A stretch of DNA of 64,000 nucleotides from Oscillospiraceae bacterium (lineage in GTDB: Bacteria; Bacillota; Clostridia; Oscillospirales; Oscillospiraceae). The notes beneath the pieces were generated by a model that worked only from the letters and a program-made list of their open reading frames with translations, was not told where the DNA came from and did no database searches. This document shows, one piece after another, positions 21,031-29,794 of the stretch. A program made the translations under genes and the position numbers. The stretch covers positions 1 to 64,000 of the forward strand of contig JAAWKB010000001.1 in assembly GCA_022797115.1 (NCBI GenBank), in the 5' to 3' direction. The stretch's first letter is position 1. Every line of letters begins with the position of its first letter.

Positions 21031-23600
21031 GGGCGGAGACGCAGACAAGCCGGCATCTGCTGCTGGCTGTCATCACCACGATATTTGGCGGGATGATGTG
21101 CCTGGTGGCGATGGTCATGGCGTGGGAGTTCTGGATGGTCCTGCTGATGACGGCGGGCTGTTTCAGCGTATGGGTCCTGCATATTGCGAGGATCGGTTCA
21201 GACGCGCTCTATGAGAACCTGTGCGCCGGGCTGATGCTGACCGAATTCTTTTTCTTTTGCGCGCATGAGGGCAGCCTGTTTGACATACCCGCTGTGGCCT
21301 GTATCCTGATCCTTGCGCTGTTCATGCTGAATAAGAAATGGGTTCTGCATGTCATCGTCTCCCTGTATGTGCTTGCGCTGCTGTATCATATCCTGGTCCT
21401 CCATACCATTTCTTATCAGATGGAGAGCCGGGATATGTTTCGTTTGGGGTTCGGGGCCGTTGTGACCTTTTGCGGGGCGGCGCTTGCCAGGTACTGGATC
21501 TACCAGCGAAATGAACAGCGGAAGTGGTATAACAGTGTATTTGCGGAGCTGGAGACAGCAGGGAAGCAGAACGCTGTTTTTTTGTCGAATGTTTCCCATG
21601 AGCTGCGTACACCGATCAATATGGTGATCGGGATCAGCGAGGTGGCCCTTGGCAGGGAGCTCCCCCCGGAGATCCGGGCGGATATGGCATCCATCAAGCT
21701 GGCGGGAAAGCGGCTGTCCAACCAGATCAATAACATGATGGACTATACGGAGATCATGGAGGGCACGCTGTCGCCGTCAAAGAAAGAATATATGATTACC
21801 TCGGTGCTTAACGATGTGATCACAATGACCGCATTGCAGAGCAACCGGCAGCATCTGGAGCTGGTATTTGATATCGATCCCAATGTGCCGGCGGTCCTCG
21901 TCGGGGATGCAGAGAAAATTTCTCATGTGTTCAAAATCCTGGTGGAAAACTCCATCAAGTTTACGGAGGAGGGCGGCATCAATGTATGTATTGGATACCG
22001 GCAGGAGAAGTACGGCGTCAACCTGATTGTAGATATCCGTGATACCGGTATCGGGATGACGGATTCCCAGCTGCTGAAGATGTATAACGTCTTTTACCAG
22101 GCAGATTCCGGCAGCAGCCGCTTTGCGGGAGGGCTTGGGCTTGGGCTGCCCATTGCCCGGGGGCTTTTGAACGCAATGGGCGGCTTCGTCCATTTTGACA
22201 GCCAAAAGCAGCAGGGCCTGCACGCCCATATCGTGATCCCCCAGGGTGTCGCGGACGACCGGCCGTGCATCGTACTGAATCATGCGGACCAGTTTTGCAT
22301 TGTGTGCTATTTCAAACCGGAGAAGTACAGCTGTGACGAGGTCCGGGAATATTATGACGGGCTGATCCTGAATTTGGTGCAGGGGCTTGGCATCCGGGGA
22401 TATCAGGCGCACAATTTTGAGGGCCTGCTCAAGCTGCAGCGCACCAAAAAGCTGACCCATGTGTTCATTGCACAGGCGGAATATGAGGAAAACCAGGAAT
22501 ATTACGAGGACCTGGCAGGTACGCTCCGGGTCATTGTGATTGCGGAGAGGGAATTCGTACTGGACCGCGGCAGCAAGCTGCTTGTCATACATAAGCCGTT
22601 CTCCGCCCTCTCTGTCGCCAACCTGCTGAACGGGGAGACGGGGGAGCGCGGGTTCATAGAGGCGCAGGCCGCAGGCCGGAAGCCGTTTACCTGCGTGGGC
22701 GTCCGGGCCCTGGCTGTGGATGACGAGGAAATGAATCTTGTGGTTGCCAAGGGCGTGCTGGGGAGCTATGGGATCGAGGTGGATACCTGCCTGAGCGGAA
22801 GGGAGGCGGTGGTGCAGTGCAGCAGCGTTTCCTACGACATCATCTTCCTGGATCATATGATGCCGGGCTTTGACGGCGTGGAGACGCTGAAAAAGATCCG
22901 TGAGATCCACAACGGGATCTATCAGGATCTGCCGGTGATCGCGCTGACTGCAAATACCGTCAGCGGCGCAAGGGACATGTTCCGCAGCGAAGGCTTTACA
23001 GAATTTGTCCCCAAGCCCATCGAACGCACCGTCTTGGAACGGGTGCTGCGGAAGGTGCTGCCCAAGGGCTGCATCCAGTACAGCATGAGCCCCACAAAGG
23101 ATAGGGAGAGGGCTGCTCCGGAAGATGAGCCGCCGGAGGCGCACGAACAAGGCGCCGGGCTGGCAGAGGCCCCGGAGCCTGCGGAGATGGCCGGTCTGCC
23201 GGAGGCTGCGGCGGAGGGGCCGTCGATTCCCTGTGGCCAGCTGGCCCAGGCCGGCATCAACGTGACGCTCGGGCTGGAGTATTGCGGCGGGGATGAGGAA
23301 TTTTACCAGGAAATGCTCCAGATGTTCTGTGAACAGAGCGCAGAGAAGCAGGCGGAGATCGTGTCCCTGTATGAAAGCGCCGGCTGGGCGGACTATGCGG
23401 TCAAGGTCCATGCGTTAAAGAGTACATCGCTGACAATTGGCGCAGAGGCGCTTTCCGCACAGGCAAAGGAGCTGGAGCTGGCGGGGAAAAGGGGCGACGC
23501 GGACTATATCCGTACGCATCACCCTGCGCTGATGCGTGCGTATGAAACACTGTGTGCGCATATTTCCGGCGTTTTTCCAGCAGATCCGGCTTCTACATGA
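21027..23600 (+). CDS. Hybrid sensor histidine kinase (TM-HisKA-HATPase-pseudoREC-REC-Hpt)
   Basis: VFLSNVSHELRTPINMVIG; GLGLGLPIARGLLNAMGG; FLDHMMPGFDG; Hpt VHALKSTSLTIGAEALS; ATGA overlap with the receiver gene. Confidence 0.92.
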   Translation: MRAETQTSRHLLLAVITTIFGGMMCLVAMVMAWEFWMVLLMTAGCFSVWVLHIARIGSDALYENLCAGLMLTEFFFFCAHEGSLFDIPAVACILILALFMLNKKWVLHVIVSLYVLALLYHILVLHTISYQMESRDMFRLGFGAVVTFCGAALARYWIYQRNEQRKWYNSVFAELETAGKQNAVFLSNVSHELRTPINMVIGISEVALGRELPPEIRADMASIKLAGKRLSNQINNMMDYTEIMEGTLSPSKKEYMITSVLNDVITMTALQSNRQHLELVFDIDPNVPAVLVGDAEKISHVFKILVENSIKFTEEGGINVCIGYRQEKYGVNLIVDIRDTGIGMTDSQLLKMYNVFYQADSGSSRFAGGLGLGLPIARGLLNAMGGFVHFDSQKQQGLHAHIVIPQGVADDRPCIVLNHADQFCIVCYFKPEKYSCDEVREYYDGLILNLVQGLGIRGYQAHNFEGLLKLQRTKKLTHVFIAQAEYEENQEYYEDLAGTLRVIVIAEREFVLDRGSKLLVIHKPFSALSVANLLNGETGERGFIEAQAAGRKPFTCVGVRALAVDDEEMNLVVAKGVLGSYGIEVDTCLSGREAVVQCSSVSYDIIFLDHMMPGFDGVETLKKIREIHNGIYQDLPVIALTANTVSGARDMFRSEGFTEFVPKPIERTVLERVLRKVLPKGCIQYSMSPTKDRERAAPEDEPPEAHEQGAGLAEAPEPAEMAGLPEAAAEGPSIPCGQLAQAGINVTLGLEYCGGDEEFYQEMLQMFCEQSAEKQAEIVSLYESAGWADYAVKVHALKSTSLTIGAEALSAQAKELELAGKRGDADYIRTHHPALMRAYETLCAHISGVFPADPAST

Positions 23601-23640
23601 AAAATGCAGGAACCATCGTGTTTTGAGAGGGGAAGAGTGC

Positions 23641-26340
23641 GTGATTAAAAAATGGCTGGAGATCATCACCGATCACAGGATCAGCCTGCGGGAGCGTATG
23701 TTCCGCATTGTATCTGGCACCTGCATGGTCGCGCTGGTATTTATCCTGCCGATGGGCAGGAATATTTGGAATATCCTGATCCTGGCGGTAAGCCTTGCCG
23801 TCATGGGGATGATTGTGAATATCAGCATCCGGAAGAAGAAAATCCGCACAGGCGCTACGGCCATCGCGGTGCTGATGCTGCTGCTGTTTCCCATCAGCTT
23901 TTTTACCGCAGGCGGATTTTACAGCGGGGTGCCGGAGTGGTTCGTATTTTGCTTTATCTATGTCTGCATCACCCTGCAGGGAAGGCGTATGGCCGTGTTT
24001 CTCGTACTTTGCACGGCGGAGACGCTTCTTTGCTATGGCGCAGCCTACTATTTCCCGGAGTTTGTCGCTTGGAATACCCAGCGCAATTCCTTCTTTAACT
24101 CCGCGTTTTCCGTTGTCATGGTTGGACTGCTGACCTGTGTGCTGCTCCTGTTCCTGAACAGGATGTATGAGGAGGAGAATGCGCTCACCCAGCAGCAAAA
24201 GAAGAAGATCGAAGAGCTGAACCGGGCGGAGAACCACTTCTTTTCCAGTATGAGCCACGAGATCCGCACGCCCATCAATACGATTATCGGGCTGAATGAG
24301 ATCATCCTGCGGGAGGATATTTCGGATGAGGTGGTGGAGAACGCAAAGAATATCCAGGGGGCCAGCAAGCTGCTGCTGACGCTGATCAATGACATCCTGG
24401 ACATATCCAAGATTAAATCCGGAAAGATGGAGATTGTCAATGTTTCTTATGAGACAGGCGCCCTTTTTTCGGAAATCGTCAATATGATATGGATCAAGGC
24501 AAAGGAAAAGGGCTTGGAATTCAAGCTCCAGGTGGACCCATCCATTCCGAGTATGCTCTGCGGGGATGAGGTGCGCATTAAGCAGATCCTGATCAACCTG
24601 CTGAGTAATGCGGTGAAATATACCAGCGAGGGCTCTGTCACCCTCTCGATCCGGTGCGAACGGCAGACGTTTAACAGGGTGCGCGTCTGGTACGCTGTGG
24701 AGGACACCGGGCAGGGGGTGAAGAAGGAGAATATCCCGTATATTTTCAACGCATTCCGGCGGGTGGATGAGGAAAAGAACCGCTATATTGAAGGGACGGG
24801 GCTGGGGCTGAGCATAGTCAAGCAGCTGGTGGAGCTGATGGGCGGTGAGATCAGCGTAAACAGTGTCTATACCAAGGGCTCGAAGTTTATCGTCATGCTG
24901 GAGCAGGATATCGTGGATGAAAAGGAGCTGGGGACGTTTACGCTGGCTTCCCGTTCCAGGGTCCACGAAGGGGAATCGTACCAGCAGAGCTTTGAGGCCC
25001 CGGATGCGCATATCCTGGTGGTAGATGACAACGATATGAACCTGACGGTAGTAAGCAAGCTGTTGGCGGAGACAAAGGTCCAGATCGATACCGCGTCAAG
25101 CGGGGCCGAGTGCCTGAAGCTGACGCAGAACCACCACTATGACTGCATCCTCATGGACCACATGATGCCGGAGATGGATGGAATCGAGTGCCTTCATGCG
25201 CTGCGCGTACAGCCGGGAGGGCTGTGCCAGGATGTACCTGTGGTGGCCCTGACCGCCAACGCTGGCAGCGACAACCAGCTGCTCTACCGGAAAGAGGGCT
25301 TCAGCGGCTATTTGGCCAAGCCGGTCAGCGGCGCGCTGCTGGAGGCGGCGGTATTGAGCATTCTTCCCAAGGGGCTGGTGCGGATCAGCGCGGAGGTCAA
25401 GCAGTCGGATATTGACAAAGATATCCTGATTTTTGAACAGGCGCAGCGGCGCTCCGTCCTGGTTACAACGGACAGTGTCTGCGACCTCCCGGAAACCCTC
25501 AGAAAAGAGTTCGGCATCTCCGTATGCCCGTATTATGTCTGTACAGATGAGGGGCGTTTCCTGGATGAACAGGAGCTGGGAGCGGATGAGCTGCTGATGC
25601 ATATCGCCAGAGGGCAGGCGGGGTATTCCCAGCCGCCAGAGGTGGAGGACTATGAGAGGTTTTTTGCGCAGAAGCTGACGGAGGCGCAGAATGTGATCCA
25701 TATCACGATGGCACGGCATGTCAGCGAGGGATATCAAAATGCCTGTGAGGCAGCGAAATCCTTTGAAAATGTCACGGTGATTGATTCCGGCCATCTCTCC
25801 AGCAGTATGGGGCTGTCGGTACTGTGCGCGGCCTATATGGCGGAGCATCATGCCGCAAAGGCGGAAATTGTGGAGTCAGTGAGGCGGATCGAACGATTCA
25901 TTTCCTCCGCTTTTATCATCAACAGCACCCATATGATGTGCCGTTGCGGGCGGATATCGAAACGAGTACAGATCCTCTGCGATGCGCTGCTGCTGCACCC
26001 GGTCCTCGTGCTGAGAAAGAGCAAGATGGTGGTTGGCAGTATGGAGATGGGGAGCTTTTCCCATGTGATGAAGAAATACGTCAAAAAGACGCTCCAGGAT
26101 ACCAGGAATGTTGACCGGCGCATCCTGTTCATCACATATTCCGGGATGGATGAGAAGCAGCTCCAGTACATCCAAAGCCTGGTACAGCAGTACTGCCCAT
26201 TTGAGCGGGTCTATCTGCAAAAGGCGTCCTCGGCCATCGCGAGCAACTGCGGTCCGGGATCGTTTGGCCTGCTGTTTATGAGAAGGGACGATGCTGCAAT
26301 CCCTTTTTTCCAGACGTCCAACCAGGACGGGGCAGCGTAG
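23641..26340 (+). CDS. Hybrid sensor histidine kinase-REC fused to a C-terminal DegV/EDD-fold domain
   Basis: FFSSMSHEIRTPINTIIGLNE; ILVVDDNDMN...DCILMDHMMPEMDG; then VLVTTDSVCDLPETLRKEFGISVCPYYV...VIDSGHLSSSMGLSVL...CRCGRISKR...PGSFGLLFMRRD; GTG start assumed. Confidence 0.88.
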   Translation: MIKKWLEIITDHRISLRERMFRIVSGTCMVALVFILPMGRNIWNILILAVSLAVMGMIVNISIRKKKIRTGATAIAVLMLLLFPISFFTAGGFYSGVPEWFVFCFIYVCITLQGRRMAVFLVLCTAETLLCYGAAYYFPEFVAWNTQRNSFFNSAFSVVMVGLLTCVLLLFLNRMYEEENALTQQQKKKIEELNRAENHFFSSMSHEIRTPINTIIGLNEIILREDISDEVVENAKNIQGASKLLLTLINDILDISKIKSGKMEIVNVSYETGALFSEIVNMIWIKAKEKGLEFKLQVDPSIPSMLCGDEVRIKQILINLLSNAVKYTSEGSVTLSIRCERQTFNRVRVWYAVEDTGQGVKKENIPYIFNAFRRVDEEKNRYIEGTGLGLSIVKQLVELMGGEISVNSVYTKGSKFIVMLEQDIVDEKELGTFTLASRSRVHEGESYQQSFEAPDAHILVVDDNDMNLTVVSKLLAETKVQIDTASSGAECLKLTQNHHYDCILMDHMMPEMDGIECLHALRVQPGGLCQDVPVVALTANAGSDNQLLYRKEGFSGYLAKPVSGALLEAAVLSILPKGLVRISAEVKQSDIDKDILIFEQAQRRSVLVTTDSVCDLPETLRKEFGISVCPYYVCTDEGRFLDEQELGADELLMHIARGQAGYSQPPEVEDYERFFAQKLTEAQNVIHITMARHVSEGYQNACEAAKSFENVTVIDSGHLSSSMGLSVLCAAYMAEHHAAKAEIVESVRRIERFISSAFIINSTHMMCRCGRISKRVQILCDALLLHPVLVLRKSKMVVGSMEMGSFSHVMKKYVKKTLQDTRNVDRRILFITYSGMDEKQLQYIQSLVQQYCPFERVYLQKASSAIASNCGPGSFGLLFMRRDDAAIPFFQTSNQDGAA

Positions 26341-26422: not shown

Positions 26423-27619
26423 TCAGTTGCCGCGCTTGTTGTACGCCTCAATGCCCTTAGCCAGCAGGTCCATGGCCCGCTCCAGATCCTTCTGCTTGAG
26501 GACGTAGGCGATACGGATTTCGTTGACGCCCTTGCCGGGAGTGGCGTAGAAGGGGCCGCCGGGGGCAAACATGACAGTGTCGCCGTTGTCGTCAAAGTCG
26601 GTGAGCAGCCACTTCTGGAAGGCGTCCGCATCGTCCACCGGCAGGGCGGCCATCAAATAGAACGCGCCGCGGGGGCACTCGCAGATAACGCCGGGGATCT
26701 CCTTGAGCTTGGCGACCACCGTGTCGCGGCGGAGCTTATATTCCTCCCGGACAGCGGCGAAGTACTCGGGGCCCACGTCGTACAGGGCGGCGGAGGCGAT
26801 CTGGTCCAGGGTGGCCACGGACAGGCGGGCCTGGCAGAACTTGATGGCCTCGCTCAGCAGCTCCTTGTTGCGGGTGATGATGCAGCCGATGCGGGCGCCG
26901 CAGGCGGAGAACCGCTTGGAGACAGTGTCGATAACGATGACATTCTCCGGCGCGTCGGCAAACTCGCCCAGGGACTGGAGGGGCTCGCCGGCGTAAACGA
27001 ACTCGCGGTAGGCTTCGTCACCGATGATGAACAGGTCATGCTCCTTGGCGATGTCCACCATCATGCGCATCTCCTCGGGGGTGAGGACGGAACCGGTGGG
27101 GTTGCCGGGGTTGGTACACATGATGGCGCGGGTGTGCTCGTTGATCTCCGCTTCAATCTTGGCCCGGTCGGCGTAGTGGTAGCCCTCATCGGGGGAGGTG
27201 TGGATGGGATGGATCTTCGCCCCGCAGGCGTTGACCATGGTGTTGTAGTTGGGGTAGAAGGGCTCGGGGATGAGGATCTCGTCGCCGTCGTCCAGGATGC
27301 AGTTGAGGACGATCTGGAGGGCCTCGCTGCCGCCGGTGGTGATCAGGATCTCGTCCTTCTCAAAGTGCATGTTGAGGTTGTCGTAGTACTTCTGGATGGC
27401 CTCGATGAGAACCGGAAGGCCGGGGGAGGGGGCGTACTCCAGCACCGGCAGATGGAAATTGCGCACCGCCTCGAAGTACTGGGGCGGCGTCTCAATATCC
27501 GGCTGGCCGATGTTCAGGTGGTAGATCTTCTTGCCGGCCGCCTCGGCGGCCACAGCGTAGGGATGGAACTTCCGCATGGGGGAAAGCCCGCACTTTTTCG
27601 CCTTGCTGGAAAATTTCAT
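26423..27619 (-). CDS. Pyridoxal phosphate-dependent aminotransferase, class I/II
   Basis: NPGNPTGSVLTPEEMRMMVDIAKEHDLFIIGDEAYREFVY; SKRFSACGARIG. Confidence 0.93.
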   Translation of the reverse strand: MKFSSKAKKCGLSPMRKFHPYAVAAEAAGKKIYHLNIGQPDIETPPQYFEAVRNFHLPVLEYAPSPGLPVLIEAIQKYYDNLNMHFEKDEILITTGGSEALQIVLNCILDDGDEILIPEPFYPNYNTMVNACGAKIHPIHTSPDEGYHYADRAKIEAEINEHTRAIMCTNPGNPTGSVLTPEEMRMMVDIAKEHDLFIIGDEAYREFVYAGEPLQSLGEFADAPENVIVIDTVSKRFSACGARIGCIITRNKELLSEAIKFCQARLSVATLDQIASAALYDVGPEYFAAVREEYKLRRDTVVAKLKEIPGVICECPRGAFYLMAALPVDDADAFQKWLLTDFDDNGDTVMFAPGGPFYATPGKGVNEIRIAYVLKQKDLERAMDLLAKGIEAYNKRGN

Positions 27620-27847
27620 AGTCGTTTCCTCATTTCTCTCAAAAAATGGAAGGTGGAGCAGGCGCAGATCCAGCCGGGAGAGGACGTCCGCCCTCCTGAT
27701 GATACCTCTATTTTAGTATATCCGGCCCGTGATGTCAAGGCGCGGGAAGGCGCAGTTTTGCGGATCTCCCGCCGTCCGCAGGCTTTTGGCAGAATAGACA
27801 GAATGGGGGACGGTTTCCCGGCAAAATCCCGAAATTCACTTCCCGCC

Positions 27848-27876
27848 TTGACTTTCCTTTTGGATTCCAGTATCCT
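27848..27876 (+). promoter_or_regulatory. Sigma-A type promoter TTGACT-N17-TATCCT
   Basis: Read directly; about 200 nt upstream of the MsmK-type ATPase. Confidence 0.65.
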
Positions 27877-27919
27877 AGTAAGTAGCTTGGGTGGTGACGC
27901 TCAGGTATTGAATCACGAG

Positions 27920-28079
27920 CTGCCCCGCCACTCCACAAAATGGCGCGGCAGACTGACAAGAAAGGATGAATCCCGCGTAGGCGTGCGGTGCGGCAGTGTG
28001 GAGACCTGCCGCAATGGGGAAGCGGTATCGCTCCGCTTCTTCCGAGGTGGGTTTTGCGGAGGCATACCCACTAACGCCT
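27920..28079 (+). ncRNA. Candidate structured 5' leader RNA (hairpin plus four-way junction)
   Basis: Complementary pairs: 27920-27930/27941-27951, closing stem AGGCGT 27979-27984/ACGCCT 28074-28079, and internal stems GCGGCAG/CTGCCGC, GAAGCGG/CCGCTTC, GTGGGT/ACCCAC. Confidence 0.55.
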
Positions 28080-28085
28080 GGAAAG

Positions 28086-29285
28086 ATGGCAACTGTATCC
28101 CTGAAGAACGTCATGAAGATCTATCCCCACAGCGGCGACCAGAAGAAAAAGAAGGCCAAGAAGGGCGAGGCCCCTGTCCAGGAGAAGAAGGTCAACCTCC
28201 AGGTCACAGAGCGGGGCGTCGTTGCTGTCCAGCAGTTCAACCTGGATATCAAGGACCAGGAGTTCATCGTGCTGGTCGGCCCCTCCGGCTGCGGCAAATC
28301 CACGACGCTGCGCATGGTGGCAGGTCTTGAGGAGATCAGCGAGGGCCAGCTGCTCATTGACGGCAAGGTCATGAACGACGTCGCCCCCAAGGACCGCGAT
28401 ATCGCCATGGTCTTCCAGAGCTACGCCCTCTATCCCCACATGACGGTCTACGAGAACATGGCTTTCTCTCTCAAGCTCAAGAAGGTTCCCAAGGACGAGA
28501 TTGACCGCAAGGTCAAGGAGGCTGCCGAGATCCTGGACATCACCCAGTACCTCGACCGCAAGCCCAAGGCCCTGTCCGGCGGCCAGCGCCAGCGTGTCGC
28601 CATCGGCCGCGCCATCGTCCGTGAGCCCAAGGTCTTCCTGATGGATGAGCCTCTCAGTAACCTGGACGCCAAGCTGCGTAACCAGATGCGCGCAGAGATC
28701 ATCAAGCTGCGTCAGAAGATCAACACCACGTTCATCTACGTCACCCACGACCAGACCGAAGCCATGACGCTGGGCGACCGCATCGTCATTATGCGCGACG
28801 GCTTCATCCAGCAGATCGGCACCCCCCAGCAGGTGTTCGACCATCCCGCCAACCTCTTCGTGGCCGGCTTCATCGGCACGCCCCAGATGAACTTCTTCGA
28901 CGCTAAGCTGGAGAAGGACGCCAAGGGCTACTACGTCACCGTCGCCGGTGCGCGCATGGAGCTGCCCGAGGATAAGCAGTCCATCCTCAACTCCAAGAAC
29001 ACGGCCCCGCAGAGCATCACTCTGGGCATCCGTCCCGACCACATCATGCTGTGCGAGGCCAACGCCCCCCACGCCCTGTCCGCCACTGTGGACGTGACCG
29101 AGCTGATGGGCGCTACCATCCACATGCATGTAAACGTTGCCGGCAAGGACGCGATCATTATCCTGCCCACCATCGACCTGACCGGTGAGCAGAAGAGCCT
29201 GGGCTACGGTGCCAAGATCAACATCACCTTTGGCGGCAATGTGATGCACCTGTTCAGCAAGGCTGACGAGAAGAGCCTGCTGTAA
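28086..29285 (+). CDS. ABC transporter ATP-binding protein, MsmK/MsiK/UgpC-type sugar importer ATPase
   Basis: GPSGCGKSTTLRMVAGLEE; LSGGQRQRVAIGRAIVREPKVFLMDEPLSNLDAKLR; MOBE-like C-terminus. Confidence 0.94.
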   Translation: MATVSLKNVMKIYPHSGDQKKKKAKKGEAPVQEKKVNLQVTERGVVAVQQFNLDIKDQEFIVLVGPSGCGKSTTLRMVAGLEEISEGQLLIDGKVMNDVAPKDRDIAMVFQSYALYPHMTVYENMAFSLKLKKVPKDEIDRKVKEAAEILDITQYLDRKPKALSGGQRQRVAIGRAIVREPKVFLMDEPLSNLDAKLRNQMRAEIIKLRQKINTTFIYVTHDQTEAMTLGDRIVIMRDGFIQQIGTPQQVFDHPANLFVAGFIGTPQMNFFDAKLEKDAKGYYVTVAGARMELPEDKQSILNSKNTAPQSITLGIRPDHIMLCEANAPHALSATVDVTELMGATIHMHVNVAGKDAIIILPTIDLTGEQKSLGYGAKINITFGGNVMHLFSKADEKSLL

Positions 29286-29374: not shown

Positions 29375-29794
29375 CTAGTTGAGCTTGTGCTTTTGGGCCA
29401 CGCTGTTGGTATCGAGGGAGCCCCGGAACACTACGAACCGGTCAAACAGGAACTCCAGGATAAAATTGGCGGCCATATTCAGCAGGGTCACAAGGTATTC
29501 ATTCCACTCCAGCGTATCCGCCAGATAGCCTCCCAGCCAGGTGGACAGGGGCGTGAAGACGCAATAGAACCCGAATACCTGGGCCATGGCCTTGGGCACG
29601 TTGCCTGCCGACTGGAAGGTGTAACGCCGGTTGAGGGTGAAGTTCCACAGCACCGACAGCGTCAGGGCGATCAGGTAGCAGGGCCAGTAGCTCCAGGCGG
29701 TCAGCTCATTGAGCAGGGAGAAGGTCCCCAGCTCGATGATACCGGCGGAGAGGGAAAACAGAAGAAACTTCAGCGTGCGCAGAAGCTCGGACAT
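29375..29794 (-). CDS. GtrA family membrane protein
   Basis: 139 aa, four TM; WNFTLNRRYTFQSAG typical of GtrA. Confidence 0.88.
   Translation of the reverse strand: MSELLRTLKFLLFSLSAGIIELGTFSLLNELTAWSYWPCYLIALTLSVLWNFTLNRRYTFQSAGNVPKAMAQVFGFYCVFTPLSTWLGGYLADTLEWNEYLVTLLNMAANFILEFLFDRFVVFRGSLDTNSVAQKHKLN

Follow-up and report, generated by a model that had tools for sequence, protein, structure and literature searches.

Regulatory RNA upstream of a gene for a shared sugar-importer ATPase has been described in Actinobacteria. The msiK motif (Rfam RF01747) lies in the 5' untranslated region (UTR) of genes for MsiK/MsmK-type ATPases and consists of one long hairpin with an 11-nucleotide bulge and a ribosome binding site in the basal stem, and binding of the leader by the ATPase that it precedes has been proposed (PMC2864571). 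The malK-I RNA (RF03069), which Rfam lists under the type Cis-reg, is an orphan catalogued RNA for which the search for a ligand is naturally guided by sugar transport. The accession RF03069 was not found in the searchable literature, the name malK-I was met there only within a methods list of a single paper, and we found no ligand or mechanism assigned to this RNA in the searchable papers. Pseudoknots at ribosome-binding sites are familiar from the rpsO leader of Escherichia coli, where the pseudoknot traps the initiation complex and a known ribosomal protein locks it. To our knowledge, ribosome-binding sites that are bridged by a structure are known only from single phage genes. In phage T4, structure located between the Shine-Dalgarno (SD) sequence and the start codon shortens the spacing from 22 to 5 nucleotides in gene 38 and from 27 to 11 nucleotides in gene 25 (PMC3014915).

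We analysed a stretch of 64,000 nucleotides from a member of the Oscillospiraceae, hereafter called the window, in which a leader RNA precedes a gene for an ATPase of the MsmK/MsmX/UgpC type. The open reading frame (ORF) carries ABC_tran, OB_MalK and TOBE_2 domains (Pfam), exceeds the cut-off of the UgpC subfamily (NCBIfam) and is close to MsmX of Bacillus subtilis (PDB match 6yir), a 'multitask' ATPase shared by several sugar importers (PMC7658222). This gene, referred to here as msmK, is solitary, as the genes on both sides (an aminotransferase gene at 26423-27619 and a GtrA-like gene at 29375-29794) are on the opposite strand. The promoter proposed for msmK in the initial annotation was recovered by a consensus scan, and the transcript would begin near position 27883. 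The divergent aminotransferase gene has a promoter-like sequence as well (TTGACA-N17-TAAAAT, 27738-27710 on the minus strand, 11/12 matches), which lies about 110 nucleotides from that of msmK. No terminator-like site was found in a scan of the leader, which favours translational over transcriptional control.

The leader is a malK-I RNA, a 5'-UTR element situated directly before the gene of the shared sugar-importer ATPase. Positions 27913-28091 of the plus strand match RF03069 with 132.1 bits (E 8.7e-25, cmscan), where the gathering score is 60.3 bits. The match is full-length, with the same hairpins, a malK-type gene directly downstream and the start codon inside the model, and in the alignment both the 5' hairpin and the multistem junction match the consensus structure with few broken pairs. 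The RNA occurs as a single copy in the assembly that we searched. The window copy itself is ordinary, a new member of a catalogued family. Folding energy by itself is modest evidence for structure in this leader (minimum free energy (MFE) -89.9 kcal/mol; an equally stable fold is reached by 4 of 200 dinucleotide shuffles, z -2.62), and the covariance-model match is strong evidence.

Features of the locus are collected in the table below. The initial annotation had described a structured RNA in the leader of an MsmK-type ATPase gene, and this description is strongly supported by the RF03069 match, by covariation in the stems and by the domain and subfamily matches of the ATPase. It gave no family name and it missed the SD-like site AAAGGA, the CCGC/GCGG helix and the loop-loop pairing that are described below. 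The relation to the actinobacterial msiK motif that it had raised was not borne out, and we rejected this identity because cmscan returned no match to RF01747 up to E 1 in positions 27700-28300; the msiK structure also differs. Both RNAs occupy the 5' UTR of a gene for the same type of shared sugar ATPase. However, the malK-I leader has its SD sequence 5' of the structured domain, whereas the ribosome binding site of the msiK motif is inside the basal stem (PMC2864571).

Table. Positions of the leader features, promoter-like sequence and downstream gene in the window.
Feature	Position	Strand	Basis
Promoter-like TTGACT-N17-TATCCT	27848..27876	+	consensus scan, 9/12 matches
malK-I RNA (RF03069), whole match including first two codons	27913..28091	+	cmscan, model 1-181
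Hairpin 1 (hp1), stem CUGCC-CGCCA / UGGCG-GGCAG	27920..27951	+	sequence; RF03069 structure line
hp1 loop CUCCAC, predicted 5' half of kissing pairing	27931..27936	+	exact complement of 27998-28003
SD sequence AAAGGA, linker from hp1 to S1	27961..27966	+	family consensus AAAGGAGG; genus GGAUG
S1 helix, 5' strand CCGC	27973..27976	+	covariation; absent from nested RF03069 model
Pseudoknot (closing) stem, 5' strand UAGGCGU, inside S1 loop	27978..27984	+	6 covarying pairs
S1 helix, 3' strand GCGG	27985..27988	+	covariation
Hairpin 2 (hp2) UGCGGCAG-[UGUGGAGAC]-CUGCCGCA	27989..28013	+	99.7% paired in 94 relatives
hp2 loop GUGGAG, predicted 3' half of kissing pairing	27998..28003	+	94/94 relatives
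Hairpin 3 (hp3)	28016..28043	+	RF03069 structure line and MFE
Hairpin 4 (hp4), loop GGAG at 28058-28061	28047..28071	+	about 90% paired with much covariation
Pseudoknot stem, 3' strand ACGCCUG, ends 5 nt before start codon	28074..28080	+	covariation
MsmK/MsmX/UgpC-type ABC importer ATPase, 399 aa	28086..29285	+	Pfam, NCBIfam and PDB matches

RF03069 matches 193 of 401 sampled genomes of the window's own taxonomic family, 4 of 388 genomes of its class and 3 of 398 of its phylum, with the window's own genome included in each of the three samples; among 14 control genomes there was no match. Named carriers include Anaerotruncus colihominis DSM 17241, Flavonifractor and Oscillibacter. The downstream ORF is MsmK-like in all 118 malK-group loci tested from Oscillospiraceae and their neighbours, and likewise in 113 of 118 loci of a second set, the other five being truncated by the end of a contig or not long enough for the test. 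Several genomes have two malK-I RNAs, each of them preceding its own msmK paralogue (loci L036/L037, L038/L039, L040/L041, L042/L043, L048/L049 and L050/L051). One leader, L206, carries a long insertion in the hp3 region, downstream of hp2.

To examine the fold we used an alignment (A1) of 94 leaders that are less than 85% identical. The 5' hairpin, the closing stem, the three enclosed hairpins and the start codon at 28086, as first drawn, are all present in the window, and the covariation by which that drawing was to be checked is found in the relatives. The closing stem (AGGCGU at 27979-27984 with ACGCCU at 28074-28079) is 92% paired over the 94 relatives and has changes on both sides in six of six pairs (A1 columns 90-95/196-201), and hp4 covaries too. 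For the whole structure, the covariation score is 0.43, versus 0.18 in shuffled alignments and at most 0.24 when the structure is slid along the alignment. The nucleotides of the UGUGGAGAC loop and a GAG between hp3 and hp4 are very strongly conserved in the 94 leaders.

In the nested Rfam model, CCGC and GCGG flank the upstream strand of the closing stem on its 5' and 3' sides, respectively, and both are unpaired. These two segments form a helix, S1, that is supported by compensatory changes. Among the relatives, 21 have a 3' strand other than GCGG, and 19 of these have its exact Watson-Crick partner upstream; CCGC, the partner of GCGG, is present in none of the 21. The pairs observed are CCGC/GCGG, CCGU/ACGG, CCCC/GGGG, GCCC/GGGC, CCGG/CCGG, CCCU/AGGG and CCCG/CGGG. 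In 88 of the 94 leaders, S1 and the entire core of the closing stem are both possible with 0-3 nucleotides between them, which suits an H-type pseudoknot. Because the upstream strand of the closing stem lies within the loop of the covarying S1 hairpin, this stem represents the second helix of such a pseudoknot. The stems of the 'four-way junction' reported initially therefore stand, whereas a plain junction does not. The comparison of relatives thus demonstrates hp1, then a linker that is single-stranded and holds a strong SD sequence, and then a predicted H-type pseudoknot, made up of S1 and the closing stem, that encloses hairpins 2-4 and is followed by the start codon 5-8 nucleotides further on. 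Judging from the geometry, the two stems are probably formed simultaneously.

Relatives of this RNA were also identified before three other kinds of gene. Two leaders from another class precede noc, the gene for nucleoid occlusion (TIGR04285 above cut-off). These leaders (L256, 1501-1694 on the minus strand, and L257, 1501-1696 on the plus strand) score 68.7 and 47.8 bits to RF03069, so that one is above the gathering score. A close relative in yet another class (L263, 1429-1620, minus strand) precedes pilM (PF11104), which has a UUG start codon. It scores 39.9 bits to RF03069 and 27.1 bits to model R1, which was built without it, and most of it can be aligned with the noc leaders. Although the genes are unrelated, hp1 and hp3 of L263 are almost identical to those found before noc. 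A further form, found in two congeneric genomes of the window's class (L278 and L286, about 1500-1640 on the reverse-complement strand), precedes the gene for a TrkH/KtrB potassium transporter (TIGR00933), which in L278 is followed by ktrA. RF03069 fails to match this form at E 1, and we include it because it matches model R2, built without these two sequences (38.4 and 29.1 bits), and keeps the anatomy. In both genomes the ktr leader is preceded on its own strand by an L20-leader-like match.

All of the noc, pilM and ktrB leaders retain S1 (as GCGU/ACGC and GCGC/GCGC in the ktrB relatives), the closing stem and the complementarity between hp1 and hp2; they lack the hp4 loop sequence GCGGAGGC. 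The presence of the same anatomy before these genes argues that the class has no fixed link with sugar transport. Other weak matches to R1 or R2 (L260, L262, L264-L270, L279-L284, L289 and L290) lacked the anatomy, lay mostly within coding sequence and were regarded as chance matches.

The hp1/hp2 complementarity involves the two loops. GUGGAG occurs in the hp2 loop of all 94 malK-I leaders and of 13 further loci, and all six loop-loop pairs can be formed in 83 of the 94 leaders of the malK group. Since the hp2 side is invariant within this group, the pairing cannot be tested there and the distant relatives decide. The combinations found in these are CUCUAC/GUAGAG (L256, L257 and L286), CCCUAC/GUAGGG (L263) and CUCUAU/GUAGAG (L278), so that two positions are altered on both sides. 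In 2000 shuffles of the hp1 region, a 6-base-pair partner of equal quality arose once for L263, 9 times for L256, 6 times for L286 and 83 times for L278. These exchanges, from few distant sequences and two to three independent events, establish a predicted loop-to-loop pairing of hp1 with hp2. Rfam draws hp2 with a GGAG tetraloop closed by GU/AC pairs. These pairs never vary in malK-I, and in the leaders of noc and pilM the closing C of hp2 is replaced by A or G and the GU/AC pair is lost, so that an hp2 loop of 9 nucleotides is the more likely form.

In these leaders a strong SD sequence is distant from the start codon. In computing duplex energies we assumed the anti-SD sequence of the window's organism. 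The SD sequence of the linker that separates hp1 from S1 forms a duplex of -5 kcal/mol or stronger in all 94 leaders, with a family median of -12.2 kcal/mol. The window's genus differs from the rest of RF03069 in this linker. All of the genus members that we read (L001, L109, L118, L126 and L131) have AAAGGAUG in place of AAAGGAGG, and the window and its genus carry AAAGGAUGA instead of the conserved AAAGGAGGA; nevertheless, the window's linker still forms a duplex of -9.1 kcal/mol with the assumed anti-SD. The linear distance from the linker SD to the start codon has a median of 118 nucleotides in the 94 leaders, and the noc, pilM and ktrB leaders likewise have a strong linker SD 118-131 nucleotides before the start.

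Close to the start codon, pairing with the anti-SD is poor. As the initial annotation had noted, no SD sequence is found at the normal distance in the window, where the region from -20 to -1 reaches only -3.3 kcal/mol. Over the 94 leaders the median for this region is -3.0 kcal/mol, weaker than that of their own shuffles (-3.9 kcal/mol), and the median is -7.9 kcal/mol at the first ATGs of the window's other long ORFs. The corresponding value is -6.4 kcal/mol for the pilM leader and -2.1 to -2.7 kcal/mol for the other non-malK leaders. A GGAGG in the loop of the last hairpin, which had been pointed out at the outset, is present in the window and is not required in the family, as GGAG is absent from 10 of the 94 malK-I leaders and the loop SD is also lost in the noc, pilM and ktrB relatives; it is unlikely to be the ribosome site.

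Two other roles for these motifs were considered and rejected. The CUCC of the hp1 loop might act as a lid on the linker SD, as leaders of the malK group could pair it with GGAG (four base pairs). However, the window's genus has GGAU at that place, and the hp1 loops of the noc (CUCUAC) and pilM (CCCUAC) leaders misfit their own SD sequences and still fit hp2. The GGA motifs as sites for a CsrA-like protein were set aside because the noc, pilM and ktrB relatives have other sequence in place of GGA in their hp2 loop.

A fairly probable explanation of this arrangement, judged from the sequence comparisons, is a structure-bridged ('split') ribosome-binding site in which translation of the ATPase would be set by the fold. 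The element would control, or at least carry, translation initiation of the shared sugar-importer ATPase, with the pseudoknot domain dividing a single ribosome-binding site into two halves. In the folded state, the spacing between SD and start codon would drop from about 118 to roughly 11-16 unpaired nucleotides and initiation would be possible; in the unfolded state, the start codon would be left without an SD sequence. Any signal that stabilises or breaks the fold, whether a metabolite, an ion, a protein or a physical condition, would then set the protein level. That this device also precedes noc, pilM and ktrB speaks against a signal specific to sugars for the entire class. When the pseudoknot is folded, the unpaired spacers add up to a median of 14 nucleotides, and there is no length compensation between the two spacers (r = 0.09). 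This spacing, to which the pseudoknot itself must be added, exceeds the usual 5-9 nucleotides, and both observations speak against bridging.

The resemblance to T4 genes 38 and 25 is that the SD sequence is linearly too far from the start codon and that structure lies between the two (PMC3014915). As expected of an arrangement of this type, the malK-I leaders have a strong distant SD, no proximal one, and a conserved, covarying structure in between. In contrast to the single hairpin of about 16-17 nucleotides in the T4 genes (PMC3014915), the malK-I leaders have a pseudoknotted domain of 100-114 nucleotides with three hairpins and a loop-loop contact, which is conserved across genera and precedes four kinds of gene. 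More tentatively, with a chance we put at slightly short of even, malK-I may be a branch of a wider, gene-independent leader class, in which a domain of about 110 nucleotides with kissing loops and an H-type pseudoknot, placed within the ribosome-binding site, must fold to join the SD to the start codon, the cassette being reused before msmK, noc, pilM and ktrB.

Several other explanations could account for some of these features. It is possible, though we hold it doubtful, that the RNA is a riboswitch in the strict sense, with hp2, the loop-loop contact and the junction forming a putative pocket for a small molecule. The conserved nucleotides of the UGUGGAGAC loop and of the GAG between hp3 and hp4 would suit such a pocket, as would the Cis-reg type in Rfam, and this reading is compatible with a split site. 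However, a sugar ATPase, nucleoid occlusion, pilus assembly and potassium uptake share no metabolite, and the groups differ in the hp4 loop and in parts of the hp2 loop.

An unlikely alternative is a repressing switch in which the 30S subunit docks at the linker SD and the pseudoknot blocks the start until it is opened by a signal or by the ribosome, so that the folded state is OFF. The rpsO leader provides a precedent for such entrapment and is similar in having its pseudoknot at the ribosome-binding site; malK-I is unlike rpsO in that the SD sequence is outside the knot. Entrapment would agree with the single-stranded SD of the model and with a closing stem that ends only 5-8 nucleotides before the start codon, but an unfolded start codon would still have no SD nearby, which makes for a poor initiation site in a Firmicute.

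Feedback by binding of MsmK to its own leader is very improbable. This RNA always precedes an msmK gene in Oscillospiraceae, including the two-copy genomes, yet the same architecture is found before noc, pilM and ktrB, none of which encodes such a protein. Least probable is a short upstream ORF served by the linker SD, with coupling or attenuation controlling msmK: the ktrB relative L278 does have an AUG 4 nucleotides after the linker SD, but a start codon 4-12 nucleotides after it exists in only 15 of the 94 malK-I leaders (AUG in 3) with ORFs of unlike lengths, so that the SD serves no conserved leader peptide and a conserved upstream ORF was rejected, as was transcription attenuation for want of a terminator-like site.

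The split ribosome-binding site, if true, would be a chromosomal and widespread counterpart of the T4-type arrangement. The SD outside the fold, on which this mechanism is based, and the non-malK relatives appear new with respect to the searchable literature, the founding paper of the family lying outside it. S1 and the loop-loop pairing, which are outside the nested RF03069 model in cmscan, also appear new in the searchable literature, and the founding malK-I drawing could already hold them. With relatives before chromosome-segregation, pilus and potassium-transporter genes, sugar transport is too narrow a guide in the search for a ligand. With the SD located outside the fold, a folding-dependent ribosome-binding site becomes a testable mechanism for which knowledge of the ligand is not needed.

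Elsewhere in the window, on the plus strand at 23536-26340, we observed a single ORF that encodes HisKA, HATPase_c and response-regulator domains followed by a C-terminal DegV (fatty-acid-binding) domain. This hybrid histidine kinase fused to DegV looks unusual.
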